A stretch of 64,000 nucleotides of DNA. Source: Clavaria fumosa. Taxonomy: Eukaryota; Basidiomycota; Agaricomycetes; Agaricales; Clavariaceae. The position numbers were made by a program, and so were the translations under genes. Below the pieces are notes generated by a model. It saw nothing but the letters and a program-made list of their open reading frames with translations, did no database searches and was not told where the DNA came from. Location of the stretch: positions 186,001-250,000 of the forward strand of contig OX637797.1 of NCBI GenBank assembly GCA_951802425.1, read 5' to 3'. Positions 5,484 through 32,100 of the stretch are shown piece by piece (positions within the stretch are counted from its first letter, which is position 1; each line of letters starts with the position of its first letter).

Positions 5484-5538
5484 CACGTGGTTACAACTTC
5501 TCCTTCCTTTGGAGTCACGTGCATCCTTTCATCACGTG
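5484..5538. promoter_or_regulatory. Three CACGTG boxes upstream of the KDZ start
   Basis: CACGTG occurs at 5484-5489, 5516-5521 and 5533-5538, 90-145 bp upstream of the KDZ start codon (5393, minus strand). The motif is the classic binding site of bHLH factors such as Cbf1/Pho4 in fungi. That it regulates the transposase is inferred from position only. Confidence 0.45.
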
Positions 5539-5545
5539 TCGAGGT

Positions 5546-8736: not shown

Positions 8737-8749
8737 TGACGACAACCAT

Positions 8750-9464
8750 GACCTCGGACAAGCACTTTCCATAGCCCAAGGGCATTGTAGCAGCAAGATG
8801 TGGTAGGGGACTTACTGGTGAGTCTTTGTTAATGGATTAGCACAATGATAAAACTGCACAGGTGATGACAATAAGGGCGACCAGGACAACAATAAACTCC
8901 TCTCTCGACCAAGCTGGTATGATCCATCCTCCATGCTCCATCCACGAACACTCACACCATGCAGTTCACAGTCCCCCACCAACCTAGGTGTTAATTAGTG
9001 TTAGCCTCTCATACTACTCTGGCCTGGCAGACTCAGTTGACAACAGCATTAGTGTGTGACTAGTGCAGCCGCAGGGAGGCAGGACGAATCAGTAAGTCAT
9101 TATATTGGCCAATTTTGATTGTCTCGGAGTCTTGTCCACTAATGTTGAGCCGCTTGTGCAGCATGCCGGAGAAATCAAAGACGCATACCTGGTTACAGTA
9201 CCATTCTCATCGTCACACATCTAAAAATGTACTGCAGCTTGGCTCTCTTTTCTAACCAGCACATACAGTACAATGAAAAAAGAAAAAAAGAAAAAAAAGA
9301 AAGCAATTTCCTAGTGTTCGTAAACTGTCATTTCAAGTCGTGATGTTTTTAGTCCGATAAATCATAGAGGTGAAGAAACTATCTGCGCAATGATGGGGGA
9401 TCAAGAAGAGCACAGCCGGAGCGAGAACGCTTTCGGATATCTAAACACAAATTCTTTTAAGACG
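8750..9464. other. No supported gene
   Basis: AT-rich sequence downstream of the palindrome with an A-rich tract near 9277-9303. It probably includes the 3' flank of the minus-strand gene that ends at 9465. Confidence 0.4.
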
Positions 9465-11490: not shown

Positions 11491-11916
11491 TCCAAATCTG
11501 GCTAGGAATTTGAGGCGTGACTTGCGTCCGCCTTATAGGCCACACAGTAGGTACTACAACCACAATAAGAAAAATAATTTGCTCCGCTACATGTAATAAC
11601 GTCCAGGAACTTTGGATCCAAACCGCTTCTGGAACAATGCATTTTGTACATTGTCCTGTTCTCCACGAGGCATGAAACTTAATTCCGTCTGAATCTTCAC
11701 CAATTGCACATGTCAGGTTCTGTGCTAGCCTTCTTTCTCTTCCACTTCCTCACACGACATAGCCATCATGTCGTCTCATGTCTCGCCTGAACCTACCTGC
11801 CTGCAAGGGTCACTTGTGATGAATATAATCTTGGTCCATGCATTGAGAGATGCTTGCTGGGTCGTTCCATATTTTCATTTAAGGCTGAATTATTGCAGCG
11901 AGCTCTTTCTTTCCCC

Positions 11917-12613
11917 ATGACTCAAGGCTCCGCAATGAAGCGGGACACAGCTCTACCTTTGTCCCAGTCCATCACGGCGCTGGCCTCGTCTCTGGCTACT
12001 GTCCTCAAAGGTAAGAACCATTGAGACGTTGTCGGCAATGCTGACATCAACATTACAGCATTAGAAGAGTTTCAGCTACAGAATGGCGATGAACGTTCGT
12101 ATATCATTGCTAACTGTTGACTGTGGCTTACCTGTTCCATCACAGTTGGTTTGAGCACAGGATCTTGTACTGAGGGCACTGCTGTCAGCAGCGATAGCGA
12201 TGGCAATGGTAAAGATAGCGAAGGTATGCATTTGAACAAAGCTTACCCTCTGTTTTCCTTCTGAACCCGTTTCTAGCGGCTGCTGCTCCGAGTATTGTCG
12301 CAGTCCCAGCTGCTGTGATTGCCACTCCGGCTCCAGCTCATCCCAATATGGCTGTGGCTCCTGCCCATTTCCCGGTACAGCCAGGTGCACGATGGTATGC
12401 CATCACTCGGGGGGTGGCAGTTGGGGTATTTGAGGGATGGTCAGTGATTTCTTTCTGTCACCTTGTCTCCGTTTCTAATGTATACCTAGGGTGAATGTTG
12501 CACCTCTTGTCAGTGGCCATTCAGGTGCCTGTTATGCACGGCATCCTACCAGAGCAGCTGCAGAAGCAGCGTATCAAGAGGCAGTGGAGGCAGGGACTGT
12601 TTTGCTAGTCTAG
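11917..12613 (+). CDS. Small protein with a C-terminal RNase H1 N-terminal (viroplasmin-like) domain
   Basis: Five exons (11917-12010, 12059-12094, 12146-12223, 12277-12439, 12490-12613) give 164 residues. The end of the protein, WYAITRGVAVGVFEGW and then a Gly-Ala-Cys-Tyr and Ala-rich helix, matches the fold found at the N-terminus of eukaryotic RNase H1, where it binds RNA/DNA hybrids. The catalytic RNase H domain is absent. The N-terminal half is low-complexity (Ser/Asp, then Ala/Pro). Stand-alone copies of this domain are, to my knowledge, multi-copy in mushrooms, but their role is unknown. It is divergently arranged with the gene at 9465-11490, 426 bp apart. The exon 2 donor (GTTCGT) is unusual. 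Confidence 0.75.
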
Positions 12614-12836
12614 TAGTTCTACTGCGTAATTGCCTATGCACTCAAACATTATGATACCGGATGCATGTCTGATTCCCAATTGTGAACGCTTATTAATAAT
12701 TGTAGCAAGAGTTATCTGGGTCAGCGCAGCTCAGCCAAAGTTCAAGAAGCCTATAACTCATGTCAACCACATGGTATGTATGAAATGAGGCTGCCCAAGA
12801 AAAAACTGGGATGCAGCGAGGAGGGTTGCTTGAAAG

Positions 12837-13010
12837 TAGGGATGCTGAAGTTTGGTTCAGTTCAGTTCTCCAAGACATTTGCCTGAATCACAAACCAGAA
12901 CCAAGTGTTGAGGGCAGGATAGATCAAACCAAGAACTAGAACTGACAGAACCAACAGAACTGGGTTCAGCAGGTTCAGTTCTGGTTCAGACTGGGTTCCA
13001 ACCATAGAAG
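12837..13010. mobile_element. Degenerate MITE rich in GGTTCAGTTC
   Basis: It begins TAGGGATGC, like the hAT-type MITE at 54744. It is then filled with GAACC/GGTTC and TTCAG tracts in both orientations, ending near GGTTCCAACC. The right terminal repeat is decayed and no target duplication was found, so the assignment rests on the start and the composition. Confidence 0.4.
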
Positions 13011-13019
13011 CAAGAGAAT

Positions 13020-13412
13020 GTTAGAATAAGGTTAGGGTTAATGTATTCCTGCTTTTCCAAGTTAATGGTAGTACATAAAACTTATCAAAAATATGCTGGT
13101 GGTGGGCAAAGTAGTGTATGACAATTTGCAAAAGAAAGTGAAGTGAGATACTTAACAGTTGTCTAGGAAAAAAATTAAAAGCCATGATTTTGGGCCGTAG
13201 GAAGATTTTAGTCCCCTGGGGAACAAAATCTTCCCACGGCCCAAAATCATGGCTTTTAATTTTTTTCCTAGACAACTGTTAAGTATCTCACTTCACTTTC
13301 TTTTGCAAATTGTCATACACTACTTTGCCCACCACCAGCATATTTTTGATAAGTTTTATGTACTACCATTAACTTGGAAAAGCAGGAATACATTAACCCT
13401 AACCCTATTCTA
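13020..13412. repeat. Near-perfect 393-bp palindrome with telomere-like ends
   Basis: Two arms of about 195 bp meet at CCCCTGGGG near 13211-13219 with almost no spacer. The outer ends read TTAGAATAAGGTTAGGGTTA and, inverted, CTAGAATAGGGTTAGGGTTA, so each contains one and a half TTAGGG units. It is most simply a foldback element. The telomere-like ends may be coincidental. Confidence 0.9.
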
Positions 13413-13694
13413 GCAGTCTGTTGGTGCCATTGCTGGTCATCATGGTGCACCAGATGAAGAATCCAGAGCACATAAAGCCAATAAGGAGGCTTATGTTTGG
13501 TGGATGGCTCCAGCCTGTCTTTCTCTTCTTCTCTTCATACCCATGATGTGGATCTTGTTTGGGGATTCTGCAACACATTATAGTTTACTGTTCCATTCTC
13601 ATTGCTGATGCATCAGTCTGATTTATAATTACAATGCATAAGGCATGACACAATTGATTAACAACTACAATTACTCAAGCACTGATCTGGTTTG

Positions 13695-13958
13695 TATCAG
13701 ACTGGGTCTCACAATCACACAGCTTAATGTAAGGTCAATGATGACAATACTAACATAAGGGGAAAAGGGTACAAGTAGGAAAAAGACATAGTATATATAG
13801 CGGGAACCCTGAGAGTTGCTGGTGTTCCCACGCTTGGACCCCGTGAGTCACGGGATGCATCCAGGCCCGGGTCACGTGACTTTCCCACGACCTTCCCGCA
13901 TCTCTTTCACGCAGCCCTCCCTCTCGCATCTCTGGTGCTTATGTAAGCAGTCCTGACA
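13695..13958. mobile_element. Solo LTR with 5-bp target duplication
   Basis: A 264-bp sequence from TATCAGAC to CCTGACA, flanked on both sides by GTTTG (13690-13694 and 13959-13963). Most of it matches the LTR at 24066-24370, including a shared CATAGTATATATAG promoter-like box. It is therefore a solo LTR left by recombination between the two LTRs of an integrated element. It contains a CACGTG box at about 13874. Confidence 0.85.
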
Positions 13959-13963
13959 GTTTG

Positions 13964-15720
13964 TGGTTACAATTCATAATAGATGATTTTGTGGATGCAT
14001 TGCTGCATATAAGCTGATTCATAATGCAATTGATTAATAATTACAATTGTTGATGCACTGATCTGATTTGTAATTACAATTCATAATGCATGATAGTCTG
14101 CATGCACTACTCCATATAAGTTGATGCATGACACAATTGATTAATAATTACAATTACTCATGCATCAATCCGATTTGTAATTACAATTGATAATGCATGA
14201 TAGCCTGCATGCAATGCTGCATATAAGCTGATGCATGACACAATTGGTTGAAAACTACAATCACTGATGCATGAGTCTGATTTGTAATTACAATTGATAA
14301 TGCATGGTAGCCTGCATGCAATGCTCCATATAAGCTGATGCATGACACAATTGATTAACAATTACAATTGCTGATGCACCAATCTCATTTGTAATTACAA
14401 TTGCTCATGCATCAATCTGATTTGTAATTACAATTCATAATGCATGATGGTCTGCATGCATTGCTCCATATAAGCTGATGCATGATACAATTGATTAACA
14501 ATTACAATTGCTCATGCATCAGTCTGATTTGTAATTAGAATTCATAATGCATGATAGCCTGCATGCAATGCTCCATATAAGCTGATGCATTACACAATTC
14601 ATCATGCATTGCTCCATGTAAGCTGATGCATGATACAATTGATTAACAATTACAATTGCTCATGCATCAGTCTGATTTGTAATTAGAATTCATAATGCAT
14701 GATAGTCTGCATGCAATGCTCTATACATACTGATGCATGACACAATTGATTAACAATTACAATTGCTCATGCATGAGTCTGATTGTAATTAGAATTGATA
14801 ATGCATGATAGCCTGTATGCAATGCTCTGTACAAGCTGATGCATGACACAATTGATTAATAATTACAATTACTGATGCATGAGTCTAATTTATAATTACA
14901 ATTCATAATGCATCACACAATTGATTAATAATTACAATTACTGATGCATGAGTCTGATTTGTAATTACAATTGACAATGCATGATTGCCTGCATGCAAAG
15001 CTCCATATAAGCTGATGCATGACACAGTTGGTTGATAATTACAATTACTGATGCATGAGTCTGATTTGTAATTACAATCCATAATGCATGATAGCCTGCA
15101 TGCAATGCTCCATAAGCTGATGCATGACAGAATTGGTTGATAACTACAATTGCTCATGCATGAGTCTGATTTGTAATTAGAATCCATAATGCATGATAGC
15201 CTGCATGCAATGCTCCATACAAGCTGATGCATGACACAATTGGTTAATAACTACAATTACTGATGCATGAGTCTGATCTGTAATTACAATTGATAATGCA
15301 TGACACAATTGATTAACAATTGCAATTGCTCATGCATCAATCTGATTTGTAATTACAATTGACAATGCATGATAGCCTGCATGCAATGCTCCATACAAGC
15401 TGATGCATGACACAATTGGTTGATAACTACAATTACTGATGCATGAGTCTGATTTGTAATTACAATTGATAATGCATGACAACCTGAATGCATTGCTCAC
15501 ATGACACAATTTATTTATGATTAGAATTACTGATGCATGAGTCTGATACACCAATCTGATTTGTAATTACATTTGCTGATGCACCAAAGTGATTTGTAAT
15601 TACAATTCATAATGCATGATTTCATTGATGCACTGCTCCATATTGAGTTTATAAGCCAATGCATCCTACAATTGATTGGTAATTACAGTATCTGATGCAT
15701 TACCACCTTAGCCCAGAGCA
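13964..15720. repeat. AT-rich tandem repeat, units of about 110-130 bp
   Basis: Around a dozen or more imperfect repeats built from ACAATTGATTAACAATTAC, TGATGCATGAGTCTGATTTG, GCATGATAGCCTGCATGC and TCCATATAAGCTGATGCATG. Unit length varies because sub-blocks are missing in some copies. Open frames here are by-products of the repeat. CpG is nearly absent. It abuts the truncated 5' end of chromovirus A. Confidence 0.9.
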
Positions 15721-15834: not shown

Positions 15835-17682
15835 GTGTTCCACGCACGTACAATGATCACCGCAGAACTCAACTACGACATTTACGACAAAGAGCTCCTC
15901 GCAATACACGATGCGTTCAAGCAATGGAGAGCGTACCTCGAAGGCGCGCGATACCAAATTCAGGTCTTTTCAGACCACAACAACCTACGATATTTTACCA
16001 CCACGAAGCAACTCAGCCGCCGACAAGCCTGCTGGGCAGAGTATCTTTCCAGTTTCGATTATGTAATTCATTATTGAGCAGGAAAGCTAGGCGCGAAGCC
16101 AGATGCCCTCACGCGACGACCCGACGTCTACCCGAAGAAATCCGACCAACCCGCGACCAATGCACAAAACAATAAGGTCGCGATACCACCAGAATTACTT
16201 CGAGCAGCCGTCATCCTCAACGAAGAAGCCCTGATTTCGCGAATTCGACACGCCCCTCGCGACTCCTACTTCTCCAAGAAAACACAGGGCACTTCACAAG
16301 GTCGCGACAAGGCGTTCTCGCTCTTGCCCGATGGCTCACTACTACTTTGTAACGGTAAAATATACGTCCCTGATCACAACTCCCTCCGATTCGACATCTT
16401 ATGCTCCAATCACGACCATAAACTACAAGGACATCCAGGTATAAGAAAGACAACCCAGCTAATAAACAGGTTGTTTTTCTGGCCAGGACTCCGAAAGGAC
16501 GTAACCGCCTACGTCTGTGGTTGTCACACCTGCGCAAGGGCAAAACCCGTCCGGCACAAACCCTACGGACTCCTCAAGCCCTTGCCCATAGGCGAGCGAC
16601 CTTGGTCTTCGATTTCGATGGACCATATCGAAGCCCTCCCTCTCTCCGCGACCTTTGACTCGATCCTTGTCGTTGTCTGTCGACTTACGAAACAAGCGAT
16701 TTTTATCTCTACCAATACTACCGACACCGCAAAAGAATTAGCCCAGCATTTCATCACCCACGTCTTTTCAAAGCATGGGCTACCCGCGGATATAGTGTCG
16801 GATAGAGGAAGATTATTTGTTTCTAAGTTTTGGTCTTCGTTATGCCAAGCTTTGGATATTACTTCAAATCTCTCCACAGCTTACCACCCCGAGACCGACG
16901 GACAAACAGAACGAGTCAACCAGGTTCTAGAGCAATATATCCGAATATATACGAACTACCAGCAAGATGACTGGAATTACCAACTCCCGCTCGCCGAGTT
17001 CGTATACAATAACACCCCTCATAGCGCGACTGGTGTCTCCCCGTTCTTCGCAAACAAGGGATACCACCCTAGACTCACGATTTCTCTCGACGACATACCC
17101 GCGCACGAAGCTCATATGGTCGTGACCGATCTCAGGACGCTTCACCAGCATCTACAAGACCAACTCAAGGTCGCGAACGAGGCCTACTCGCGCTTTGCGG
17201 ACCCGAAGAGAGAGACTACGCCGGATTGGAAGGAAGGAACAAGAGTGTGGTTAGATTTGCGGAATGTGAAGACGAAGAGACCAATGAAGAAATTGGACTC
17301 GAAACGAGCCGGACCTTTCCCCATACTCGCGAAAGTTTCGACTCATGCATATCGTCTCCAGTTACCGAAATCGATGCGAGAAATTCACGACGTTTTCCAC
17401 ATTTCTTTACTCGAGAAGGTCTACGACAACGCTTTCCCCCAGCGGCAACAGCAACCCCCGCCCCCTATCGAGGTCGACAGCGAACAACATTATGAAGTCG
17501 CCGACATACTAGATTCTCGAAGGAGGGGTAGGAAAGTGCTTTACCTCGTACGATGGGAAGGTTACGGACCCGAGGACGACACCTGGGAACCAATAGAGTC
17601 ACTTTCCGGATCGAAGGAGCTCCTCCAGGACTTCCATGCGACCTACCCGGAAAAACCTCGTGCGGCTCGCGCAACTCAATAA
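15835..17682 (+). pseudogene. Gypsy pol remnant: RNase H end, integrase, chromodomain
   Basis: It starts mid-RNase H (AELNYDIYDKELLAI, FSDHNNLRYF). A TGA stop at 16075-16077 lies in the spot where the family normally has Arg before GKLGAKPDALTRR, and the frame then runs on to 17682. Integrase parts are visible: a His2Cys2 zinc site (GHPGIRK then CGCHTCARAKP), then catalytic Asp in SMDHIEALP, Asp in VSDRGRLFVSKFW and Glu in HPETDGQTERVNQ. The C-terminal chromodomain (LYLVRWEGYGPEDDTWEP) places it among chromoviruses; such domains steer integration by binding chromatin. With no reverse transcriptase and one stop it cannot act alone. Confidence 0.9.
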
Positions 17683-17780: not shown

Positions 17781-19856
17781 CTACTGGTCGCGAGCTTTTT
17801 CCTTCCCCTTTCGTGACCCTTCTGCTCCTTCCCCGCCTTCCACACTCGCGACTTTTTCCTTTTCCCCCTTCTCCTCCTCTCCAGCCTCGGGAGCCTTCAA
17901 CTCAAAACCCCAATTGTCCACCCTCGGAATATCCAACAACTCCCTCCTCACACGACGCTGCTCCTGCTCCACCCACTTTTCCACCCACGACGGGAGTTCT
18001 TTCGGCGACTTCATCAAGAGGTCTTCATAGGCGAAGAAGACCGTCTCGAGGCCTCGCCGTCCTCGAAAGCGAGCCTCGCGGAGCTCACCAACCATACTCC
18101 CGCATTGGTCACGTAATTCTAGAAAAACAAACCATTAGCTTATCGTTAAGAATACGAAACTCGCGACCACTTACCTTGCGACTGCTCCCTCGACACCGAC
18201 AACTCCTCCTCCATCCTCTCTACAGTCGCAACTAATACTATAAAACGCTGAATTAAGTCATTTTATACTCGCGACCATTGACTTACCCTCTTTTTCCTTC
18301 TCCAATCCCTTCACCTCGCGGCGCGCCTCCCTCAACTTGGTTTCCTGGTCTGAGTAAACAAAGGAAATCAGTTTGTAACGTGGTAAAACTAAACAATTAC
18401 TTACCTTCCCACTCCCCATGGAGAGCCTCAAAATCCTTCTCCACCTCCTCCTTCTGCGCCGTCAACTCTGCGACCTTCACATCCAACCCCCTGGATGTGG
18501 ATGCCTTCAGCGAATCCACTCGCGCTTCCTGGACCTCTCTGCTTTTTCCTACAGACGCGCAAGTTCAGTAAAAAAGTTTCCGAGCATAAAGAAAACTCAC
18601 CTTTTGCGCTTTTCCGCGCCTCCTCCAACTCGCGTTTTACCGCCGCCAACTCTCTTTCCAACTCCACTTCCTTGTCGGACTTCTCCACCCACAACGTCTT
18701 CTTCGAGGGCTCCGCGACCTGCTGTCTCAACGTCGCGAGTTCCCTTTCCACCTCCTCTCTCGTTCCGGACTCATGTGACGATGTTGCCACCTTCGTTCGC
18801 ACCGTCGTCGCGACCGCCTTCAATCGCTTCACCTCCTCCTCGCTTTTCTTCAACCTCCCCTCCAGCCAGCGCTCCTTCGTCGCCCTTACATCCAACCGCC
18901 CTTGAAGGATCTTCACTTCTTCCTCACAGTCCATCACCCTCCGAAGCAGCCGCCCCTTCTCTCCCGGGGTTGCCAGAATCCGCGCCTTCTCCGCGCGAAC
19001 CTTCGCGACGTTCGTCAGTCGCACCGGCGCGTCTTCCTCCACCTCCGTCTCTGTTTCTGCGACTCGCCTCCTCGACGTCGAAGGACCCGGCGTCGGTGAC
19101 CGCGACCTTGCCCTCGTTCGTTTTCCGCGCCCTACTCACGTAGGGGTTTCCGGAACCGGAAGGAAGGGGAGCTTTCCTCCCACTCGACTCACGACCTTGG
19201 GCGTCGCCATACCCATCGTTTCCGATCCTTCGGCGTGTTTCAGCGCCTCATCGACTCGCGCGTCGTCCCATCCGTATTCATTTTTGACACGCCATCGATG
19301 GAATTCTTGAACCCAAGAGCACTTTCCGTGGTCTTCTGCGCACTGACGACACTTGCCGGCAGTGCTGCGCTCACACTGTCAGCCCTTTGCGACGCAATTG
19401 TCGCAATCCTTTGACACAACAATTAGAAAACGAATGGAAACGAGAAATACTGCTATGCACCTCTCGCTCCCTCTCGTTCCATTCCTTATTCTCCCTCGCT
19501 GACCCAATTTTCTTCCATGCCCTCAGGAAGTCCGCAGGCAATGGGTCAGCTCCGCCCGCAACTTTGCCCCTTACTCCGCTAGGGCCCGCGACATTCTCCA
19601 TTGACCCGCTAGGGCCTGCGACGTTGTCCCTCGCCTTGTTGGGACTCGCGACCTTGTTCTTATTTTCGCGCTTCGCGACCTCCTCTCGGGAACGCGCACA
19701 TCGCACCTGTTCAACCTTTTGACGGGTCAGCGTGTCTTCTAGGATCCCCAAATTGACCCCGGGTTCTGTTGTGTCGAAAATGCGCATTTCGCGCGCGACC
19801 TCATTCTCGTCCTTGTTGGTTTCGGTTTCGTGTTGTTTGATAAAAGCGGAGACCAT
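17781..19856 (-). CDS. Antisense accessory gene of chromovirus A: Zn2Cys6-like cluster plus coiled coil
   Basis: A multi-exon gene opposite to pol, starting 117 bp inside the 3' LTR and ending 98 bp past the pol stop. The first exon (from ATG 19856) has repeats of VAGPSG and ends DFLRAWKKIGS...NEREREV. The second encodes six cysteines spaced C-x2-C-x6-C-x7-C-x2-C-x6-C (about 19424-19319), the spacing of fungal binuclear zinc clusters. Then comes a long Glu/Lys/Arg-rich coiled coil (mostly 19042-18550) and several short exons. The last exon (18095-17781) holds FFAYEDLLMKSPKELPSWVE and an acidic/basic tail. A TGA interrupts the zinc cluster where the second copy has Trp, so this copy may be dead. 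Parts near 19140-19200 could not be joined with certainty. DNA binding and dimerisation are inferred from the motifs. Confidence 0.65.
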
Positions 19857-19960
19857 GGTGGTTGGACTTAGAGAAAAATTTCGGGTGTTGTGACCTGATC
19901 AACAAACATCGCGCTGACTAATCATCACGTGATCTCCACTCTCGCAGGGCTCGAGGCTTG

Positions 19961-21335
19961 AAGGGGGGGTAATGTCAGGACCCATTCATTTTTCCTTTAC
20001 CCAAGCTGACTCCACCAACATCTACGGCCCTCCCGACGACCCTCTACCACCTCGCGTATCCCTCTATACACTTCCGGGACCCGCTGTCTCCTTCCGGAAG
20101 CCTCTCCAACCTCCCCCGCGCTCACATGACACTCGCGACCACCATGCTGTACTCGCGACGCTTCCTAGTACTTCATCCTACGCGCATACTTCACCCGGAC
20201 CCACCAATCCTATGCGCGACACACCGATACGCGTCTACTTCCACCAGCACGTGACTTGTCGCGCGGCACCCCTGGCGCTACCACTACCAGCGCCAATACG
20301 TTACCAGCATTACGACCGTTACTTGCGTTACCAGCGTTACCCACGTGACTACCCGCCCGTAGGTCACCTGCGTCACTAGCGTCACCCACGTGATCGCTCT
20401 TATGACCTCACGACCTTAACACTCAAACGCGCCACCAACGGTCAGCTGTATGAACACTTCAAATATGCGTCCCTTCTTCTCCTCAGTCGTCTATAATTAC
20501 GTTACTTATGATCCAAGAATCCCTCCGTAGTTATAGCAACGTATATACTTATTTAACTAGGTCACGACCCGTGACAGGTCATCTTCGCGACCTTACCTAT
20601 GCATACCTAACCCCTCACAACCTTAGTAGAACACGCGCCTAGTCACTTTACGACTAAACATACCCCATACTACCATAGTCTTGTTGCCTGGCAACCTCTG
20701 TACTTTCCCTTTTTCATTATACTCTCTCTACGTACGTATATAAGGTCTCGCATGTACTTATGGTACTCCAGACTTGATATTGACACACATTGGTTTAAGC
20801 TTGAGGCTAGTACGCCCTTTGAGCTTGGAACCATCGCAATTGATAGGTCTTGTCTCTCTTGGTGACCACAAGATCGCCAAGACACGCTCTACTCTGTTCT
20901 AACTCACCCTCTACGCTCGTACAACTCGCGCGATCCAAGTATTCTCTATTATTCGTCTTGGTACTGATCTTAGAACTCTACAGGTTCACCCGTTGGTTGG
21001 CAAAGTCATCGCCTTCACCGACACATTCCTCAACACCGTCACGACCACCACGACCCTTCCAACATTGTCTATTTCTTTCACCTCGTCTTCTTCCTTCTCT
21101 ACGCTTCGTCGGTCGACCTCGCGACCTTCTCAGCGTTGTCACTTTCTCCCACCTTGTCTATTTCTTTCTTCACGCTTCGTTGGTCGACTTCGCGACCCTC
21201 TCAGCGTCACCCATTCCCCCCCTCCTTGTCAATTTCCTCCTTTACACTTCGTCTACCGACTTCGCGACCTTCCAGGACCGAGCATTCTCGACTGTGCTCT
21301 ACAGTTGATTGGTCTTAGCGAGTTTCCAGCATAGG
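19961..21335 (+). repeat. Polypurine tract and 3' LTR of chromovirus A
   Basis: The polypurine tract AAGGGGGGG precedes TGTCAGGA at 19973, the usual tract-LTR junction. The LTR contains CACGTG boxes (about 20250, 20342, 20387), a minisatellite of GCGTTACCA type at 20285-20400, a TATATAAGG box near 20737 and three imperfect 70-85-bp repeats with GGTCGACCTCGCGACC at 21060-21290. With the accessory gene start only 117 bp away on the other strand, the LTR may drive transcription both ways; this is an inference. Confidence 0.65.
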
Positions 21336-21344
21336 TCACCAACA

Positions 21345-23470
21345 AGTCAATCTCCGGCATTACTATTGAGATGGGACAGGCCCTAACACACATCCACTGT
21401 GTCTCTGATGCATGGGAGGGGGTATTTGTCCTTTGATCAGATGCGCATTTAGCCTTGAGTAGTCAATAATCGGCCGCAGCTTGTCCTTCTCATGTTTGAA
21501 GAAGAAGGGGCTTGCATACGGGGATTTCGAGGGTCAGATACGTCCAGATGCTAACTGCTCATCCACCCATCAGTTCATCTCCACCATCTCTGCCCATGTT
21601 AGTGAGTACAGCTTAGTGGAGAGGTGCCAAGGATCAGTTTTGAACTCAATTTTAATGTCAAAGTCAGGGCAGGAGCAGGGAAGCTCGTCCCACTTTGCTT
21701 CACTGAAGACCATGGGGTGGAGGCTGGGCCAATCAGGAGTGGGGCCAGCATTGGGAAAACAGGTGTCCGGAATACTGGTGGAGGCCAGGGTACTTGTTTT
21801 CAGGGGTGCAGGGGCTCGTTTAGGAGTCGGGCGGCTGTGCGGGGAAGAGGCACAGGCATGGGGGCAGCGAGTGAGCCTTACTTCAGCTTTCACCCAGTCG
21901 ATCTCTGGGTTATGACATTTTAACCAATCATGCCCAAGGATCGCCATGTGGGACTGGGTCTTCCCTAGCAGGAAGTGGATCCGTTCCTGGTGATCACCAA
22001 CTGTCACAAGCAGCTCTACCCCATACCAGATCTTGCCATCCCTGTTCTGTGTCCCATCCACATTGTACATGGTGATCAGGTTCAACAGGGGGGATAGCTC
22101 CAATCCCACTTTCCTAGCCCACTCCAAGTCCATAAAGCAGTTGGTGCAGCCTGAATCAACAAGGGCTTTCATGGTTGCCCCCCTGCCAGTGCTGAGAGCT
22201 TCCAGGTGCACCTGAATGGAGAGCTCTCAGGGCATACGCGATAGTGTGTCCTTCAGCACCTCTGCCAGGTGCTTGGTCAGCTCCACTTTTCTGCTAGTCC
22301 CCATTTTCTTTTTCGGTATTTCACTCTTAGCAGTTTCTGTTTCCGCTTTGTCCTTTGCCTCAGCCCCAATCCGGGTATGTCTCCACTGCAATATAGTATA
22401 TTTTGGGATACTAGCTGCGGATACAGGGACGGGAGGGGGGCTGGGGTATCTACTCTTGAGGCACCAGTTTGGACTTACTGGACCTCATCTCCAAAATCCT
22501 GCTCCTCAACAGGAGCCTTCCTTTCTCTCTGAAGCAACTGCAATCTCATTCTCATAGTCTTCGGCATTTCAAACCTGGCTTTCCATGGCGCAGAGCTGCA
22601 GCCTCTGGATCTGTGGGCATGCATCTGGGAGTGGGCACTCTCTCACCATGTGGCCAGCTTGACCACAGCAGAAGCAAGTGTGCACTACTCCAGGGGCACG
22701 GGCACAGTCCACCATCATGGCATCACCAGCACTGCGTGGGTGTGGCATGATGGGAGGGGCAGGGGTGCGGGCCAGTGGCTGGGCCAGGAAGGGGCGTGGG
22801 GCTGGAGCGAAATGGGTTGGTGGGGTGGGTCGATTCGCCGTCGATTCGCCATGGGCAGGGCAGGGTGGGTAGCATTCTGCTGGGCCACAACACCCTCGAA
22901 GCATCGCTGCTGGGCATCCAGCCTCTCAGCAAGTGCCTTCCACTCCCCATAGGTTCCTGGCATCGGAGAGATGTTGTATATCCTCGCCACCAATTTCCTG
23001 CTGAGGTTCTGCTCTAACCAGTGGACCAGAATGTCCAAGTTGGCTACCTCTGTCATCCCTGCTTGGTGAAACATCATCTTGAACTTGGCGAAGAACTCTG
23101 GGGCTGTCATGGTGCCCTGCTTTAACCCAGCGATGTCTGCGAGGGCAGTCGTACAGTTGTTCGGGTCATCAAAGGCCCACTTCATTTCCTCCATGAACTC
23201 CACCCAGGTTCCAGCTTCACCACTCTCTAGGATCTCTTCAGCTTTCATGTTTGCCCACTCTGCGGCGAATCCCTTTCCAGTAATTTTGCTTAGAGCAAAA
23301 AGGACCTTTGCCTGGTCCATGGCATAGACTGTTGGATTCACCATAAACAGGAGGCAAATTGACTGGAGGAACATGTGGAAGTTCCTTTTCTGCCCATCAA
23401 AGGGGGCAACAGATAAGTCCAGCCTCATGGCTTGGACTACAGGTGGGGCGACATGGTCAGCCATCACAGA
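21345..23470 (-). pseudogene. Gypsy gag-protease-RT start, truncated and frameshifted
   Basis: The gag frame begins at 23467 (MMADHVAPPVVQAMRLDL) and has the capsid-like region (FDGQKRNFHMFLQSICLLF, WVEFMEEMKWAFDDP, EFFAKFKMMFHQAG). An 11-bp tandem duplication of GTCGATTCGCC (22829-22850) shifts the frame. The zinc knuckle CFCCGQAGHMVREC follows in the next frame (near 22650). The aspartic protease is at about 22170-21900 (LVDSGCTNCFMD, AILGHDWLKCHNPEIDW). The start of reverse transcriptase (SPYASPFFFKHEKDKLRPII) is followed by an abrupt end near 21345. No integrase is attached. It is a different family from chromovirus A by its position and sequence. Confidence 0.85.
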
Positions 23471-24065
23471 CCCTGGTGGTGGTGATGGGGTTTTGGGGAT
23501 GTCAGTAACAGGGGAATTGGGGGGAAGCAGGGCTTGACCTGGTCTCAGTCTCAGACACTGTAAACAAAATTCCAGGCCTTGGGCACTCAGGATTTCTTCG
23601 ATCTCATAGCAGTCCTGTCCTCTCAGGCTGCTCTTCTATGTACTTATGTACTTGTAGAACTCTTATTCTATAAAACTCTTGCTAACGTGGGGTCCAAAAG
23701 GTATCCCAGGTGGTCGCTCCACAACTCTTAATGAGTTGCCCATGCGCCCTTCTGACAATGGTCACAGAGCAAGGGCTCTGTCCACTGGACCAGGAAACTA
23801 CTTGAAAGACTAAGTAGAGGGCCTTTCCGTGCCCTGTACACTACACAATTTACTGGGAGGAGTTTGGTGGCTGTGCTCCAGTTCGGGTCATGTGTATCTA
23901 TACACAGTAAAAATTTCACACAGTTCTGTTGCACACTGTGGGCAGGGTAAAGAGAAAGAGGATGAGGGGGATAAGCTGTCACAGAGTGTGACAGTTTGAG
24001 ATAGGGATCCAGGCTAGCCAGGTTAGGACACGGGGCTAGGGTGGACAGGGTTGATGTTAGTATTG
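23471..24065. other. Untranslated or LTR-linked sequence, no supported gene
   Basis: Lies between the gag start and the LTR-like sequence at 24066. Short minus-strand frames exist but show no family motif. It may be the gag leader or part of a longer LTR. Confidence 0.4.
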
Positions 24066-24370
24066 TGTCAGACTTAGTCTTATGGTTCACACAACTTAAC
24101 ATAAGGTCGATGATGACGATACTAACATAAGGGGAAAAGGGTACAAGTAAGGAAAAGTCATAGTATATATAGCAGGAACCCCAGGAGTTGCTGGCATTCC
24201 CATGCTCAGACCCCAGATGTCATGTGATGTGCCTGAGGCCTGAGTCACATGATGCACCATTATGTAATCTGGCGACCATTCCAATCACATGACTTACCTG
24301 TGATCTTCCCATGACTCCTTTGTAATCCCATCCTGACCTTTCTCATGTGCTTATGTAAGCGATCCTGACA
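24066..24370. repeat. LTR, about 305 bp
   Basis: From TGTCAGAC to CCTGACA, matching the solo LTR at 13695-13958 across most of its length, including ACTAACATAAGGGGAAAAGG and the TATATATAG box. Its flanks do not match (TATTG and CTTAT), so it is not an intact solo LTR. It probably belonged either to the gag fragment on its left or to the gag-like fragment on its right. Confidence 0.7.
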
Positions 24371-24780
24371 CTTATATACCTGAGGGTGCTGTGGGTTCCT
24401 GCGGTGCAGCCCCAGGTCTGCAGCCTAAGGATGCTATCCATCTGTTGTGGCATGTCTCTCTACAGGCCTGCTCAGTCCACAGCTGCCTTCCACAGTATTC
24501 CGCAGGCTTGCACAGTCCACAGCTGTTTGATACTGCTCTTTGATGCGGCTCTCTGCTCTCTCCTGTTGCCCCTTTCCTGGATGTTATCGGGGCAGCTTAT
24601 CTCCACATGCTTTCCTCAGTTGCCATGTGCTCCTGTGTGATGGCTCTTCCTTGCCACTCAGCTTATCTCACAGCTCTTATCTGCCCTTCATAGTATATAA
24701 GGAGGGTTTGTACTGCTTCTCCCTCCTCATTACTGTTATGTGCTGGGGCCCACACAAACTCAACTTCCTTTCCAGCTCTC

Positions 24781-25084
24781 ATGTCTTCTAACAAGTCGCC
24801 CCCCTTGTACTCTCTTGTGCCACCTTTCATTAGGCGATTCAGAGGGGAGCCAACGACCTCCTCATTCTCACCATTGCCCAACGATGCTATGCTTGCAGAC
24901 ATCCTGGCCATTTTGCATCATCATGCCCCTGAGTCATCTGCCCCAGCAACCTTATCTGTGACCTTCTCGAGGATCCCCACAGTACAGTCTTTTCTTCCAT
25001 TTCTCATTTGCTTTTTTGATTATTCTTTCCAGAGTGGGACTTTGTTCCTCCTACCTGGTGGGCATCCCCCACTTCTTATTCAGG
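24781..25084 (+). pseudogene. Gag-like fragment related to the gene at 2566
   Basis: Begins ATG at 24781 about 80 bp after a TATATAAGG box. It includes the segment ICDLLEDPH followed by a 50-bp intron-like stretch and WDFVPP, which correspond to the zinc-knuckle gene at 2566-3212. The zinc knuckle itself is missing. The sequence then switches abruptly to integrase at about 25085, so this is a deletion junction. Confidence 0.5.
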
Positions 25085-25764
25085 ATGGACAACAACACCC
25101 CCCATAGCACAACTGGTGTCTCCCTGTTCTTCACAAACAAGGGATACCACCCAAGACTCATGATTTCCCTCGAAGGGATACCCATGCACAAGGCCCACAT
25201 GGTCACAACTGATCTCAAGATGCTCCATCAGCACCTACAAGATCAACTCAAGGTCACAAACGAGGCCTACTCATGCTTTGCAGACAGGAATAGAGAGGTT
25301 ACACCAGATTGGAAGGAAGGGATGAAAGTGTGGTTAGACTTACAGAATGTGAAGATGAAGAGACTGATGAAGAAACTGGACTCAAAACAAGCCGGACATT
25401 TCCCCATACTCACAAAAGTTTTGACTCACATGTATCATCTCCAGTTACCAAAATCAATGCAGGGAATTCACAATGTTTCCCATGTCTTGTTACTCAAGAA
25501 CGTCTATGATGACACCTTCCCCCAGTGACAACAGCAACCCCTGCCCCCTATCAAGATCAACAGCAAACAACACTACAAAGTTGCCAACATATTGGATTCT
25601 CAAAGGAGGGGTAGGAAAGTGCTTTACCTCATACATTGGGAAGGTTATGGACCCAATGACAACACCTGGGAGCCCATCAAATCACTTTCCAGCCTGAAGG
25701 AACTCCTTGAGGACTTCCATGTGGCATACCTGGACAAGCCTCATGCAACTCACACAACTCAATA
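25085..25764 (+). pseudogene. Integrase C-terminus and chromodomain, second copy
   Basis: Parallel to residues near the end of chromovirus A pol (TTGVSLFFTNKGYHPRL, QLPKSMQGIHNV). The frame is closed by TGA at 25526-25528 where copy A has CGG, then continues open through the chromodomain (VLYLIHWEGYGPNDNTWEP) to TAA at 25762. Several conserved Arg and Asp/Glu codons have become Gln, His, Asn or Lys through CG-to-CA changes. Non-functional. Confidence 0.85.
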
Positions 25765-25885
25765 ATTTTCCTTGCCTCCTTTTCATTTTTCTTCACTTTC
25801 TCACTTCAGACTTTGCAGCAGTATATACACAATAAAAATACAACAAGAAAAACTCTACCTACTGGTCATGAGCTTTTTCCTTCCC

Positions 25886-27921
25886 CTATTGCGACCCTTC
25901 TGCCCCTTCCCCACCTTCCACACTTGCAACTTTTTCTTCCTCTCCCCCCTTCTCCTCCTCTCCATCCTCAGGACCCTTCAACTCCACACCCCATTGGTCC
26001 ACCCTTGGAAGATCCAACAACTCCCTCCTCACACAATGCTGCTCCTGCTCCGCCCATTTCTCCACCCATGGTGAGAGCTCTGGTGGCGACTTCAGCAAAA
26101 GATCTTCATAGGCAAAGAAGACTGTTTCCAGTCCTTGTTGCCCTCAAAATTGAGCCTTGCAAAGCTCACTGACCATCATCATGCATCTACTGCACAATTC
26201 TAGAAACAAACCATCAGCTCATCATCAAGAATACAAAACTTGTGACTACTTACCCTGCTCCTGCTCCCTTGATGCCAACAATTCTGTTTCCATCCTCTCT
26301 ACAGTTGCAAACAAATCTACAAAACACAGATTAGTTTATTTTATATTCACAACTGTAGAACTTACTTTGTTCTGACTCCTCAGCCTCTTCCAATCCATGC
26401 CAGACCTCCCCCAGTTCAACCTTCTGATCTGGGTAAAAAGGAAGATCAGTTGGAACGTCGTGAAGCGAAATCACGACTTACCAGTGTCTTCCTTCTTTGC
26501 TGTCGCTATCACCCCCTTTACCTCCTCAAACCTGTTGCAAGTTTTTTCCACCATTGCCAACTATTCTATGGGTGAAATTAGCTCACTTCATATCTGTGAA
26601 ATTTGAACTTACCCTCCTTCTCCTTCTTCAACTCCCTCACCTCACGGCATGCCTCTCTTAATTTGGCCTCCTGGTCTGCATAAGGAAGGAAATCAGTTTG
26701 TAACACAGTAAAACAAAGCAAATACTTACCTTGCCACTCCCCATGGAGTGCCTTGAGCTCCTTTTCCACTCCCTCTGCCCACGCCATTAAATCCACAATC
26801 TCCACATCCACATCCCTGGATGCAGGTACCTTTGATGACTTCCTCTGTGTTTCCTCCACTTCCTTGCCTTTCCCTACAGACTCACAAGTTCAGTAAACTT
26901 GCAAAAAGCGAAGAAACTTGAAGACTCACCTTTCGCACCTTTCTGCACCTCCTCCAACTTGCATCTCACCCACCAACTCTGCTTCCAACTCCACCTCCCT
27001 ATTCAACTTCTGCACCCACATTATCTTCTGTGTGGGCTCTGCAACTTGTTGTTGGAGCATCACAAGCTTTCTCTTGAGGTTGACTCTTGGGACCAAAGTC
27101 CCCATGACCTTTTCTCCCTCCCCCACCAACTCCCTCGACGACAACGGCTTTGTGACTCACCTTTTTGATGTTGACAGGCCAGGCATTGGCAACCATGACC
27201 TTGCCCTTGTCTGCTTCCCATGTCCCACCCATGTCGGAGTCCCCGGAACTGGTATTGTAGGGTATTTCGGTCCCACTTGACTCATGACCACTGTCACCAA
27301 CCCTTCCACATGTCACATAGCCTTGTCAATCTTCGTGTCATCCCATCCATACTTGTTCTTCACATGCCATCGACAGAAGTCTTGGACCCAGGAGCACTTC
27401 CCATGGTCCTCCACACACTGATGAAATTTGCCTGCTGCACTGCACTTGCACTGCCAGCCCTTTGCAATGCAATTGTCACAATCCTGTAACACAACAATTA
27501 GAAGAAATGAATGAGAATGAGAATTACTATTATGCACCTCTCACTCCCTTTCATTCCACTCTTTGTTCTCCTTTACTGACCCTATTTTCTTCCAAGCTTT
27601 TAGGAAGTCTGTGGGCAACAGGTCAGCCTCACCCGCAAGATTGCCCCCCATCCTGCTGGGGCCCACAATGTTCTCCATCGCCCCACTTGGGCCTGCAACA
27701 TCACCCACTGCCTTGCTCATGCCCATGACATTGCCTCACATCTTGTTGTGGCCTGTGACTTCGTCTTGAATGCACACACATCGCACCCATTCTGCGGCTT
27801 GTCAAGCCAAGGCATTGTCCAAGATACTCTCGTTTAGTGCCAGCTCCGTCTCCTCATAAATGCGCATTTTGTGCATGACCTTGGTTTTGTCTTTGTGTTG
27901 TTTGATAGTGGCAGAGACCAT
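25886..27921 (-). pseudogene. Second copy of the antisense Zn-cluster/coiled-coil gene
   Basis: Same order as the gene at 17781-19856. The ATG at 27921 gives MVSATIKQHKD, and the DFLKAWKKIGS exon ends near 27541. The cysteine exon (about 27480-27310, CDNCIAKGWQC ... HGKCSW) keeps five of the six cluster cysteines, with Phe in place of the fourth, and retains Trp where copy A has a stop. Coiled-coil pieces lie at about 27130-26930 and 26860-26590. The C-terminal exon ends at 25886 (LLKSPPELSPWVEKW). Exon order and splice positions agree between copies despite heavy CpG decay, which supports a real spliced gene. Stops in several exons make this copy a pseudogene. Confidence 0.65.
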
Positions 27922-28194
27922 GGTGGTTGAACTTAGAAAAAAATTTCAGGTGTCATGACTTGATCAACAAACATCGCGCTGACTAATTGTCACATGATCT
28001 CCACCCACTTCCAACCCTGCTTGAGCATCTTGCCACCCAGTGTGTTGCATGACTGTTTTTGCCACATGCACTGGTTGCATGACATTTTCACAACCCCAAC
28101 ACACTGCATGCTTGCAAACATGCAGCATTCACAAACAGGGTCCTGCAGGACCAATACCTTATCCTAGAGAACAATACATTAGAGCTTTTTTCTC

Positions 28195-28871
28195 TTGATT
28201 AGACTTACTTACCTTTCCATCCACCAATGTCTGCCCCCTCCCGCCATGTGCACATCTTGAGGAATCTGAGATGGGCATACCAGTAGCCCTTGGCATCGAC
28301 TTCCTCAATTTCCACATTGCCCTCATTGCATGCCAATGTGTCTTGTTGTTGTTGGATGTCTTCACTTCACCTGCACTCCTCCAATGTGGGAGCGCAGGCA
28401 GTTGTGGCAGCTGTTGCCGCTGCTGCCTCCACCTCCACCTCCCTCCATGCTTCCTCCGCTTTTTCCTCTTGACAGGCCCACTCTACCTCCACTGCCCACT
28501 CCGTGCATGCGTTGTCAACCTTCTTCAGAAAATTGTGGGTGTCAACAATTGCCCACTCCACTGCCTCTAACTGTCCCTCAGACTCAACGATGTCCCCCTC
28601 CACCATGGCAAATGCCATATACCACTTGCAGTGGTCCTACAGCAACACTGTCATATCAGCATTAGAGCCAAGGGGTGGGATGACTTACCACCAATTGTTG
28701 GGCATCGTCCACCCACACCCACAACTCTCTCACTTCCATCACCACCTCGAATTCTGCCTGCAGGTCCACTTGGGGGGGGAGAGACCTCTCTGCCATCAGC
28801 AAGTGCCGGTTTTGGAACTTGGCAATGATTTCACATAAGAGGGGCAGGAGAGGGTGAAGAGTAGGTGCCAT
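28195..28871 (-). pseudogene. Opposite-strand gene of a third LTR element
   Basis: Starts at ATG 28871 (MAPTLHPLLPLLCEII). One GT-AG intron (about 28686-28630) separates it from an exon encoding KWYMAFAMVEGDIVE and a Glu/Ala/Trp-rich helical run. A stop near 28367 is followed by more in-frame sequence (GYWYAHLRFLKMCTW) up to a GTAAGT donor near 28212. It lies just inside a polypurine tract and LTR start, as the genes of chromovirus A and its relative do, but has no cysteine cluster in the visible part and no clear sequence similarity to them. Function unknown. Confidence 0.45.
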
Positions 28872-28987: not shown

Positions 28988-29150
28988 CTAGGGAGGAGGT
29001 ACTGTCACAACCCAACACACCCTGTTATGGGCTGCCTGACATGTCCTCACACTTGACGACTGCTCCTGACTCAATTCCACTGCTCAATGATCACTCCGAA
29101 CCTACAATCAGCAACTCCATATGTGGACCATAATTCCGATGGACTCCACG
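28988..29150 (+). repeat. Polypurine tract and LTR start of a third element
   Basis: AGGGAGGAGG is followed after a few bases by TGTCACAACCC at 29003, the same arrangement as at 19961-19973. How far the LTR extends to the right is unclear; I see no matching end within the next several hundred bases. Confidence 0.5.
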
Positions 29151-32100
29151 CACTTCACTGTTGTTTGGCTGATGTTGGGGAACCTTGGGAATGAGTGAAA
29201 TCAGTTTAGGACTTGCAGAGTGGCCTCTAGACAAGCTAGTGAAGGTCCCTCAATGATATTAGACTTTGGGGTTTGGATACAGTGGCTGAAACATGTTTCC
29301 AGACAATTTCTTAGTATTTGTTTTATGACTTCTTCTTTGTGGACTTTTTTTGATACTATCCCATTTTAGACACTTACTTACTATATAATCCTTGAAGCTG
29401 TAGTAGATACTACAGCATATGACATAAACTCAATTACCTGCTTATGCACAAGGATTGCTGTCTGAGTAGGTCAATTCCACCTAAACACAAATATGAACAA
29501 CAGCAAGCTATATGATGTCCACTTAGTCATGGCAAATAGCATATGTCATGGCACATAGCATAGTCATTCCTTATGTATTTACAGAGCTCAGCTAAACATG
29601 GATACCTTTCTACTCCATTCTCATGGTGCTGAGGCCAAATTATTCCTACAAGCCAAGCTGTGGCAATGCTAACTGGGCCCTGTGCATGAACATCCTGCAT
29701 CTAACCCAATTTGAATCACTCAAATTAATGAAAATTTGGATGAAAATTTGTGAGACCCTTTCTGCTGCACAGGTGGAAAAATTATGTAATCAATGTGTTG
29801 CCTGCTAATACCGCATCTGCCTCCAGTTCTACTTCTCACTATTGTGATTTCTCATTTCACACTCTTACACGACCCATTCACTTTACATGTTATCGCATTC
29901 GCCATTTGGCCTATTTATTTTTTCTATTCATCTTGTCTCTTCCGCCTGCTAATTGTCCATGCACTCCACGTGCGTTATTATGCCTACGCGCTGCAGCAGG
30001 TGAGAACGGTTGTTGATCATTTCTTGTGAATCACCAGAGCTGACGCTGTTGTGATTGTCGAACTTGCAATGCAATTCCATCGTCGTGCACATTGTTTACT
30101 GACCCTATCTCGTCTGCCCGCATTCGCTCTCACCCGCGAGTCGTGTTCTCGTCCCTCGTTCCCCGCTTTCGCGATCACCCCCCTCGCCGTTTTGCGTTTG
30201 CGCCTCTTAAAGGGAGTGTTGCAACGACGTGGAAGGTTTTTCACACCAATCTACTATCTAAGTTGTCGCGCCAATACCCCGAATTTAAGGGAACGTGACC
30301 CATTCAAGGGCTCGTCCATGTGTTTGATCTTCACTTGCCAAAAAATCATGGGAGTGTCCTCAAAGGTTCGCAAGTCGGACCGAGCTCAGCATTTTGCGGG
30401 GCAGTGACAGTTATCGGCCTTTCGTGTCCAAGCGCTCGGTTCCGAGATGAAATCTGGATCAAAAACGATGGTCCTTTTTCCTTGACAGTTGTCTTCGGAA
30501 AGTTCCACGGACGCAATCGCGGGGGCTTTGCGTCTGACGTGACGCGTGACGTGGCAGACATGACACATGTCGCCTCTGACTGAGCGCTTGGTCTTGGTGC
30601 GATATGAATCCGCTGGTGGGCCTTCACCTTGCCGACGTCAAAAGCGCGCAGCGACCCGACCGCTGCTATTGCAGGATGAGGGGAAAAGAGGCAGACTGAC
30701 AATGATCAGTGGTCTCGTCGCCCATCAATGCAAAAAGAAAATCTTTTGCACTTGTGCTGCATACGCATTTGGCAGGTCCACCAAATCCCACAACTGAATC
30801 TTCCTTATCCCCTTTGAGGTTTCGACCCGCCTGCCTCCTTCCTGCCATTCTCAGTTGAATTGCTTTTGGCTCCACCGGCTTGATGCCGTCAATACACGGG
30901 AAGCCACACGAGTCAACATTCGCACCCTCCTTTCTGAACTTCTACGTCATCGGAGGGGCCTGAACTGCATCGGTTGCAGACGAGGGAACTGCCTTGATCG
31001 CCGTACAGATGTGTTGTGACCGACACCACCGCAAGGCACTGTTCAAGTGACGGCCGCTGGGATACAAAGAACTCGTTTGGCAAATCATTGATTATGCCTT
31101 ATCGGCGAACGCGGCGAACACGGTAACTTAGCAGCCAGCTGGTCCATAAGGATAGCGGATCGACGCAGGGGAGAGCCCTCGCTCAGGCTCGATGGATAGC
31201 TGGTCTAACATCGTCCAGCCGAAAATTTCCTCCCCTCAGTTCGCACGACGGCTCCATGATACTCCACCGTCAACCGCTGGCCATTCGGGAGACCAGCGGG
31301 GTGCCGCCTTTCCATGTCTGAGGCCTCGCTCGAATGTCGTGTGTCGCCTGACAGGTTGGGGTATGGTTAATATGTGGGGCGACCCTGATATATAACGGCG
31401 TCGGGTGTACCACCATGTAGCCGGTTCCACGTCCACCAGTCACATACAGTGCATGACAGTATAAGTACATGACAAGCCTCACAGAAACGCACCGCAAGCG
31501 TGCCACAGCACGCAATCGTCAGTTCAGTTCTTTGGATTTCGATCGAGGCGGAAACGGCCCGCTTTGAATGTTATCTCTTTTTCCTTTTTTTTTCTTTGGC
31601 CACGCCCTCTCTTCTGACTTTACAGATATCATATCTTCTTTCCCCGTGGGTCAGTGAATGGTTGAAGGGCCCAGCTCTTCTCCCCTGGCGGCGACGATCT
31701 TACAGCCAGGGCCGAATTTCTTATCATCTCCCTCGGAGTGCTGAGAGTTGGTACACCGAAATACACGGGGACTGGTTTTGGAAAGTTCAGCTGACAAGCA
31801 AGGCAGGGCCGGATCAAAAGGTGTGTGTTGCCATGCTGCCTTCATTCACACGCTCACTGACACCCAGAAAAACCCCGCAATCTCGCAAAACCCTAGATCT
31901 GACTTCGAGGGGCGAACAACGAAAGGAGGAAGAAGAAAAAATGGGCGACCCGAGGAGAGGAGAGTTCGGGCAAAAGTAGGGTCTGCCTGCCTCCCTTATT
32001 GAATGCCTAGCGTTTTGAATCTTGCACTTCCCGCGAAGGTCCCGACGAGGTCATGGGCGCAGATTGATCTCTCTGGTTCCCACACATTGGTTCTCGGCCA

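Follow-up and report, generated by a model that had tools for sequence, protein, structure and literature searches.

A spliced antisense gene with a Zn2Cys6-like cysteine cluster in a fungal chromovirus: a possible regulator of its own element

Why would a long terminal repeat (LTR) retroelement carry, at its 3′ end and on the strand opposite to pol, a spliced gene of its own, and what could the product of that gene do for the element? The question is raised by a stretch of 64,000 nucleotides of Clavaria fumosa DNA (contig OX637797.1, positions 186,001 to 250,000, forward strand), which we call the window, and in which an original prediction, made from the letters alone, placed such a gene in three elements: a chromovirus (here, A), a relative of it (B) and a third element. 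We have followed the question through the genome (48.8 Mb in 17 contigs were searched; the window sits on the contig that we number C4), and we arrive at an answer in two parts. The antisense gene of the A family is protein-coding and kept by selection, and the best explanation as a whole, to which we would give a probability of about 0.6, is that it encodes a dimeric, DNA-binding self-regulator of the element.

The gene is, to begin with, where it was said to be. In A, it runs antisense to pol from 19856 to 17781, between pol and the 3′ LTR, and 117 nt separate its ATG from the edge of the LTR (19973), in keeping with the 100–130 bp first proposed. Element A in the window lacks its 5′ side, and what remains reads, in order, integrase and chromodomain (the end of pol, 16324–17682, plus strand), the antisense gene, a purine tract and the LTR (19973–21380, plus strand, with an approximate right edge; separate LTR matches in copies L010, L015 and L021 start at 19972 or 19973). 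The gene has six exons and five introns of 49–56 nt, GT-AG in all five, and its predicted product is ~600 residues long. All exons are on the minus strand: exon 1 (19461–19856) holds the ATG and an N-terminal region; exon 2 (18601–19408) holds a cluster of six cysteines, a basic linker and a first coiled coil; exon 3 (18405–18548) continues the coiled coil; exons 4 (18287–18349) and 5 (18175–18237, its acceptor revised from relatives) are coiled-coil modules of 63 nt, or three heptads, each; and exon 6 (17781–18118) encodes a C-terminal domain with a charged, partly acidic tail and ends in the stop TAG. Introns 2–5 are in phase 1 throughout, and because all of them fall between the first and second bases of a codon, a middle exon could be gained or lost without a change of frame. 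Reading by eye, we find what appear to be extra exons of the exon 4/5 kind between exons 4 and 5 in L043 and L045, which suggests that the coiled coil lengthens and shortens by modules.

Is this a working gene or the debris of one? The window copy of A has two in-frame TGA codons, both in exon 2 and one of them within the cysteine cluster, and B, as described below, is in a worse state. Broken copies are what one would expect of a passenger, a host gene captured without benefit to the element or a chance reading frame in decaying DNA. Across the genome, most of 32 aligned copies keep the start codon and the splice donors and acceptors, and the stop recurs in those copies that reach it. For tests of selection, we used 29 of 36 copies, omitting as duplicates L023–L028 and L030 (seven, all of the L022 type described below), retaining frameshifted copies and skipping codons with gaps or stops. 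The median ratio of nonsynonymous to synonymous substitution rates (dN/dS) of the antisense gene is 0.279 over 383 distant pairs, which are not independent of one another, and the same letters shifted by one or two bases give 0.936 and 0.922, with shifted frames overall at 0.83–0.94; in pol, the integrase-chromodomain control, the median is 0.118 (96 pairs of 15 copies). By exon, the medians are 0.29 in exon 1, 0.22 in exon 2 and 0.24 in the true frame of exon 6. The most constrained part tested is the first 50 codons of exon 2, the part with the cysteines, where the pooled ratio of nonsynonymous to synonymous differences (pN/pS) is 0.16 vs. 1.2–1.4 in shifted frames. Differences per site are 0.34 at third codon positions, 0.31 in introns, 0.21 at first and second positions and 0.05 at the GT/AG dinucleotides.

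Recurring splice sites and frame-specific selection rule out an artefact of chance or decay, and the window's A copy is broken although the gene of its family is under selection. The original prediction was to be abandoned if reading frame and splice sites proved not to be conserved, or if dN/dS lay near one; within this genome, both are conserved, and dN/dS is well below one. We regard a mere passenger as the least probable of all the explanations considered here, given selection over 29 copies, the occurrence of the gene in several subfamilies and two related proteins from other contigs. Only slightly less improbable is the idea that the functional product is the antisense RNA alone, acting through double-stranded RNA or small RNAs. 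Antisense RNA of elements can feed RNA interference, according to the portions available of a review (PMC7264820), but purifying selection specific to one frame, together with the conservation of splice sites and cysteines, calls for a protein. A further candidate, env-like coding on the pol strand, was tried and rejected: among six frames, pN/pS is lowest in the antisense frame in exons 1, 2, 3 and 6 (0.45, 0.32, 0.40 and 0.53), and second lowest in each of them is the frame on the pol strand that shares its third positions with the antisense frame. By count of stops, the antisense frame has the fewest in exons 1 and 2, is tied in exon 3 and comes third in exon 6.

From what, then, might the gene be transcribed? 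The stretch between the polypurine tract (PPT) and the ATG (19857–19972, minus strand) is a candidate antisense promoter or 5′ untranslated region on the ground of its conservation: from LTR edge to ATG, the mean pairwise difference is 0.123 (134 columns, including the LTR edge), which is below that of any codon position. This conserved stretch could hold the promoter.

What kind of protein does the gene encode? The A-type cluster, C-x2-C-x6-C-x7-C-x2-C-x6-C, fits the Zn_clus definition C-x2-C-x6-C-x5-12-C-x2-C-x6-8-C. Its cysteines 1–6 are kept in 29/29, 29/29, 27/27, 26/27, 27/27 and 27/27 of the copies that have letters there, the one exception being B; in L029, the middle spacer is shorter. 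Among Pfam families, Zn_clus drew matches from more members than any other (11 of 20, counting E values up to 10, the best being 0.071), and its curated cut-off was not reached (member 1 scores 8.9 bits vs. 21). Across the genome, Zn_clus has 16 matches, none of them at the places listed for the antisense gene. An hhalign comparison with GAL4 paired each of the six cysteines (E 0.0014, probability 17.5%), and Foldseek returned six PDB matches, none significant alone, all of them chains of PPR1, HAP1, GAL4 or Pho7. The PPR1 chain is identified as a Zn2Cys6 protein by its PDB title, and HAP1, GAL4 and Pho7 we take to be Zn2Cys6 proteins as well. Secondary-structure prediction places a helix at each CxxC, two extra helices directly after the cluster and a coiled coil further on, the long predicted helices having coiled-coil character; a sequence search of the PDB with the antisense protein gave coiled coils and chance matches only. 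To us, these predictions make the protein look like a Zn2Cys6-like cluster joined to a coiled coil, and like a DNA-binding regulator. The order foreseen for A and B (N-terminal exon, six-cysteine cluster, coiled coil, acidic tail) holds in A, with a tail that is charged and partly acidic; in B, one of the six cysteines is lost.

How widely is the gene distributed, and does it belong to the element? A's cysteine exon has 151 matches in the genome (150 of 173 candidates scored), many of them stop-free and some short or split. Among 20 loci opened to 10 kb, 13 have an integrase-chromodomain immediately before the antisense gene. The open reading frames (ORFs) of one of these, L011, encode gag, protease, reverse transcriptase, RNase H, integrase and chromodomain in that order (protease and integrase core fall below cut-offs), and by this domain order, the A-type element is a chromovirus (Ty3/Gypsy). 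The remaining seven loci (L022–L028) share one layout without an integrase-chromodomain, and the one tested, L022, has a copia gag. With L030, these form a block of very similar layout (LTR, antisense exons 1–4 and, in the tested copy L022, the copia-type gag) on contigs C1, C2, C4, C5, C9, C11 and C12, often towards their ends, and the block looks like a duplicated subtelomeric segment. Of the matches to the cysteine exon, 24 cover only query residues 1–52 (e.g., C9:3391544, C2:33121 and C8:20430), again often near contig ends; most of these cysteine-domain pieces have one TGA and one TAG, their identity is similar from place to place, and they are perhaps part of another subtelomeric repeat. 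That such a gene is universal among chromoviruses was a reading tried and rejected: two other families, L046 and L047 (integrase-chromodomain identity 41–43%), have no stop-free cluster of this spacing in the 5.5 kb examined of each. Among the roughly one-quarter of the 151 places that were opened, we recognised no host gene lying outside elements of this kind.

Outside this genome, of 5.8 billion proteins searched (7996 candidates scored), one proved to be a relative: P0001 (from ENA; 385 aa; E 4e-78). It reads openly across exon 1, its intron and exon 2 and has the full set of six cysteines. P0002 (from JGI; 227 aa) came from an alignment search; it starts immediately past the cluster and belongs to the short-exon-2 type found in B. 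No relatives of the antisense protein were found in viral contigs. Nor does the gene seem to have traveled strictly with its pol: between L015 and L043 (its pol taken from the adjoining L048), synonymous divergence (dS) is 0.087 in pol and 1.10 in antisense exons 1–2; pol dS and antisense dS correlate at 0.31 (105 pairs of 15 copies, B excluded); and the cysteine cluster is nearly unchanged between copies while the coil and the N terminus differ. These comparisons suggest that the gene has been exchanged between elements or that recombinants meet in this region.

If the protein binds DNA, what could it bind? Against a second-order expectation, TCGCGA and words overlapping it take the first five places among over-represented hexamers in each of the 10-kb loci L011 and L017. 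TCGCGA itself occurs 29 times vs. 8.0 expected in L011 and 34 vs. 8.2 in L017, with z, corrected for the double counting of a palindrome, of about 7 and 9. It is not strictly the top word alone, as the overlapping GTCGCG/CGCGAC has z of 9.6 (L011) and 8.9 (L017). Within L011, the motif is spread over the 5′ part through pol (16 vs. 4.5), the antisense gene (8 vs. 2.2) and the LTR (5 vs. 0.9). The A-type loci L042–L045 have 8, 11, 3 and 5 vs. 2.4, 2.6, 1.1 and 1.8 expected; the non-A loci L040, L041, L046 and L047 have 1, 0, 2 and 2 vs. 0.9, 0.3, 0.9 and 1.3, with no clear excess, and two of these four, L040 and L041, have a different cluster protein of their own. In the window, 21 of 31 occurrences lie in A itself, over 5.5 kb, two of them in introns, and the 49 kb of other DNA (1–15000 and 30001–64000) has 10 vs. 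9.2 expected. A's LTR has a tandem repeat of 71–72 bp (21051–21269, plus strand), with TCGCGA at 21119, 21190 and 21262, that is, at unit spacing.

The enrichment arises partly through synonymous codon choice. When synonymous codons are shuffled, the pol ORF of L011 (12 vs. 2.7) and that of L017 (10 vs. 2.0) are equaled in 0 of 1000 shuffles each; among nine A-type pieces, two more fall below 1% (6 and 4 of 1000), and five do not. TCGCGA does not occur in four controls. In many copies, TCGCGAG stands close to the donors of introns 4 and 5, as if an intron-exon unit had been duplicated together with the motif.

We suggest that the antisense protein may read TCGCGA. Motif and gene occur together in the same elements, and the palindrome fits a coiled-coil dimer. 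A mechanism can then be imagined. A promoter, probably between PPT and ATG, would drive the gene against gag-pol; the protein, made up of its N-terminal region, Zn2Cys6-like DNA-binding cluster, modular coiled coil for dimerisation and charged C-terminal part, would enter the nucleus; the dimer would bind TCGCGA across gag-pol, the antisense gene and the LTR; and the bound protein would alter transcription or the chromatin state of the element's own copies. A bolder version, in which dimeric, Zn2Cys6-like self-recognition of TCGCGA controls the silencing of the element's own kind, arose independently of the VANC proteins of plants and is passed about as a gene cassette, we offer as a tentative proposal that we would not expect to hold in full.

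Would such a protein be a brake? The layout (antisense, spliced, on the side of the 3′ LTR) is that of HBZ/APH in human T-cell leukaemia virus (HTLV), as far as the accessible text describes it; the protein has a coiled coil and an acidic part, and the LTR array contains TCGCGA, all of which would suit a protein that lowers transcription from its own LTR, keeps copies latent and limits damage to the host. The DNA-binding domain, however, is not bZIP but of another kind, and in L011, the motif is about as dense in gag-pol (16 in 5.8 kb) as in the LTR (5 in 1.4 kb). Because these densities are about equal, marking of the whole element fits better than control of a promoter, and we judge a brake of the HBZ kind to be possible but doubtful.

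Would it be the opposite, a shield? The VANDAL elements of Arabidopsis, which are DNA transposons, encode VANC proteins, and a VANC-like protein on its many motifs would keep DNA methylation or heterochromatin off the element's own copies. A dense self motif, an LTR array with the motif at unit spacing and modular coiled-coil exons would all be at home there, as would a genome in which an old copy, B, has lost nearly all its CpG. B consists of a pol remnant, the integrase-chromodomain part (25016–25766, plus strand), and a decayed antisense gene (approximately 25886 to 27921, minus strand) with a short exon 2, many stops and frame shifts and its fourth cysteine of six replaced by Phe (a TTT codon). 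As first noted, B has no LTR: similarity to A stops near 28004, where the third element begins, and PPT and LTR are gone. CpG observed/expected is 1.25 in A vs. 0.23 in B, and the loss in B looks like decay by CpG methylation. Of the CpGs present at the corresponding positions of L011, B retains one of 18 within the motif and 12 of 170 outside it (6–7%). Protection of CpGs inside TCGCGA, slight at best in the oldest copies by this comparison of B with L011, was a candidate that we rejected, and the lack of any sign of it there counts against an anti-silencer, as does the presence of TCGCGA in coding parts, VANC21 motifs being found in non-coding parts. A shield of this kind we consider no likelier than a brake, and doubtful in the same degree.

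A third role, as a cofactor that guides the pre-integration complex together with the chromodomain or aids its entry into the nucleus, has in its favor that the chromodomain adjoins the antisense gene and that nuclear roles have been proposed for plant antisense genes (in the available portions of PMC7264820), but it leaves the enrichment of TCGCGA within the element unexplained, and we think it distinctly unlikely.

The gene of the third element, given originally as 28195–28871, is indeed spliced and antisense; it is longer than was noted, its last exon reaching about 28005. It has at least three exons on the minus strand: exon 1 (28689–28871); exon 2 (28213–28636), charged and, by eye, probably helical, with one TGA in the window copy; and exon 3 (28163 to about 28005), which holds a cysteine cluster and is cut by the junction with B. 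Its start is 132 nt from the likely LTR start at 29003, where TGTCACAACC follows a purine tract (29003–29200, plus strand, the start of the LTR as read from the sequence). The cluster is C-x2-C-x6-C-x7-C-x2-C-x6-C in all three copies compared (window, L040 and L041). In the window, no other cluster of that spacing is free of stops in any of the six frames, and none arose in 40 first-order Markov replicates of 64 kb. Unlike in A, the charged, probably helical part (again by eye) comes first and the cluster last. Beyond the 3′ end of the gene lies an integrase-chromodomain with 56% identity to A in L040 and 47–49%, in two pieces, in L041. The cysteine exon has 28 matches in the genome, a few of them split; Pfam Zn_clus does not match the protein of this family, and a search elsewhere for a relative of the exon gave two candidates, none at E up to 10. 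Homology of the A-type and third-family clusters cannot be claimed, spacing alone being no ground for it. GGAATT, tried as a self motif of this family, occurs 12 times vs. 2.5 in L040 (both strands) and was rejected, as it is not a top word in L049, the rest of that element.

Three further observations concern the surroundings. A 9-bp tandem repeat (CGTTACCAG) lies in the A LTR at 20299–20341 of the window and at 1461–1503 of L017. By self-comparison, a tandem array with ~107-bp spacing occupies 13960–15700, immediately before the truncated A. Between A and B, another Gypsy element, oriented oppositely, has its gag and protease-like ORFs on the minus strand (21570–23467).

How new is any of this? 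Antisense genes before the 3′ LTR are already known; the Zn2Cys6-like, multi-exon, fungal version and the TCGCGA self motif are new. The statement that standard Gypsy elements have no such gene stands for most of them and fails for several plant elements and for Boty of Botrytis (PMC7264820). The review by Vicient and Casacuberta (2020, PMC7264820) traces descriptions of antisense accessory genes in LTR retrotransposons back to the 1990s; those between pol and the 3′ LTR include Grande, RIRE2, Retand, PvRetro13 and Boty, and their functions are given as unknown (PMC7264820, PMC11963269, PMC8365987, PMC4227169); the literature that we consulted, itself seen in part, gives no tested function for such a gene in a retrotransposon. 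Judged by titles and the openings of abstracts, with subscription journals mostly outside, none of the papers listed by our searches describes an antisense gene of a fungal LTR element that is multi-exon or Zn2Cys6-like.

Among known systems, plant Gypsy elements (maize Grande with gene23, rice RIRE2, Silene Retand with TRP28, and PvRetro13) have, as partly available accounts tell it, a conserved gene in the same place and on the same strand in most copies; the Grande product is described there as nuclear and transcribed from an upstream promoter, and DNA binding is predicted for TRP28 (PMC7264820, PMC11963269). Unlike them, the gene here has six exons and a Zn2Cys6-like cluster and belongs to a fungal chromovirus, and Pfam found no TRP28 match in its protein. 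Another is brtn, of the Boty-like elements of Botrytis cinerea, which are fungal chromodomain Gypsy elements with an additional antisense gene (PMC8365987, PMC4227169), placed in Boty between pol and the 3′ LTR (PMC7264820). We compared brtn with the A-type gene by description only, and the accessible passages (PMC8365987, PMC4227169, PMC7264820) mention neither a Zn2Cys6 cluster nor a multi-exon structure. HBZ and APH of HTLV are likewise antisense, spliced and on the 3′ LTR side, and mostly nuclear, repressive regulators in the text available (PMC10186651); they have bZIP or none instead of Zn2Cys6 and come from a virus of people, and we claim no common ancestry. The fungal Zn2Cys6 regulators (GAL4, PPR1, HAP1 and Pho7) share with our protein the cysteine spacing, a helix (in ours predicted) at each CxxC and a coiled coil further on; ours differs in falling below the Pfam cut-off, in its two extra helices after the cluster and in being encoded by a retroelement.

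With a predicted DNA-binding domain, a candidate site, modular exons and measured selection, in a gene with more than 100 genome matches, the question of its role becomes one for a binding assay. A further comparison is with the VANCs: as far as the available text goes, the short motif that they bind is concentrated in the elements encoding them, its density matters, it spreads via tandem repeats, and the VANC genes vary in repeats and exon organisation (PMC5735166). An element-encoded protein, a dense short self motif, tandem arrays and a protein whose exons vary by repeats are common to both; the domains are different, and recognition of the motif by our protein is a proposal. If TCGCGA is truly its site, fungal retrotransposons would have a self-recognition system comparable to that of VANC in plants.

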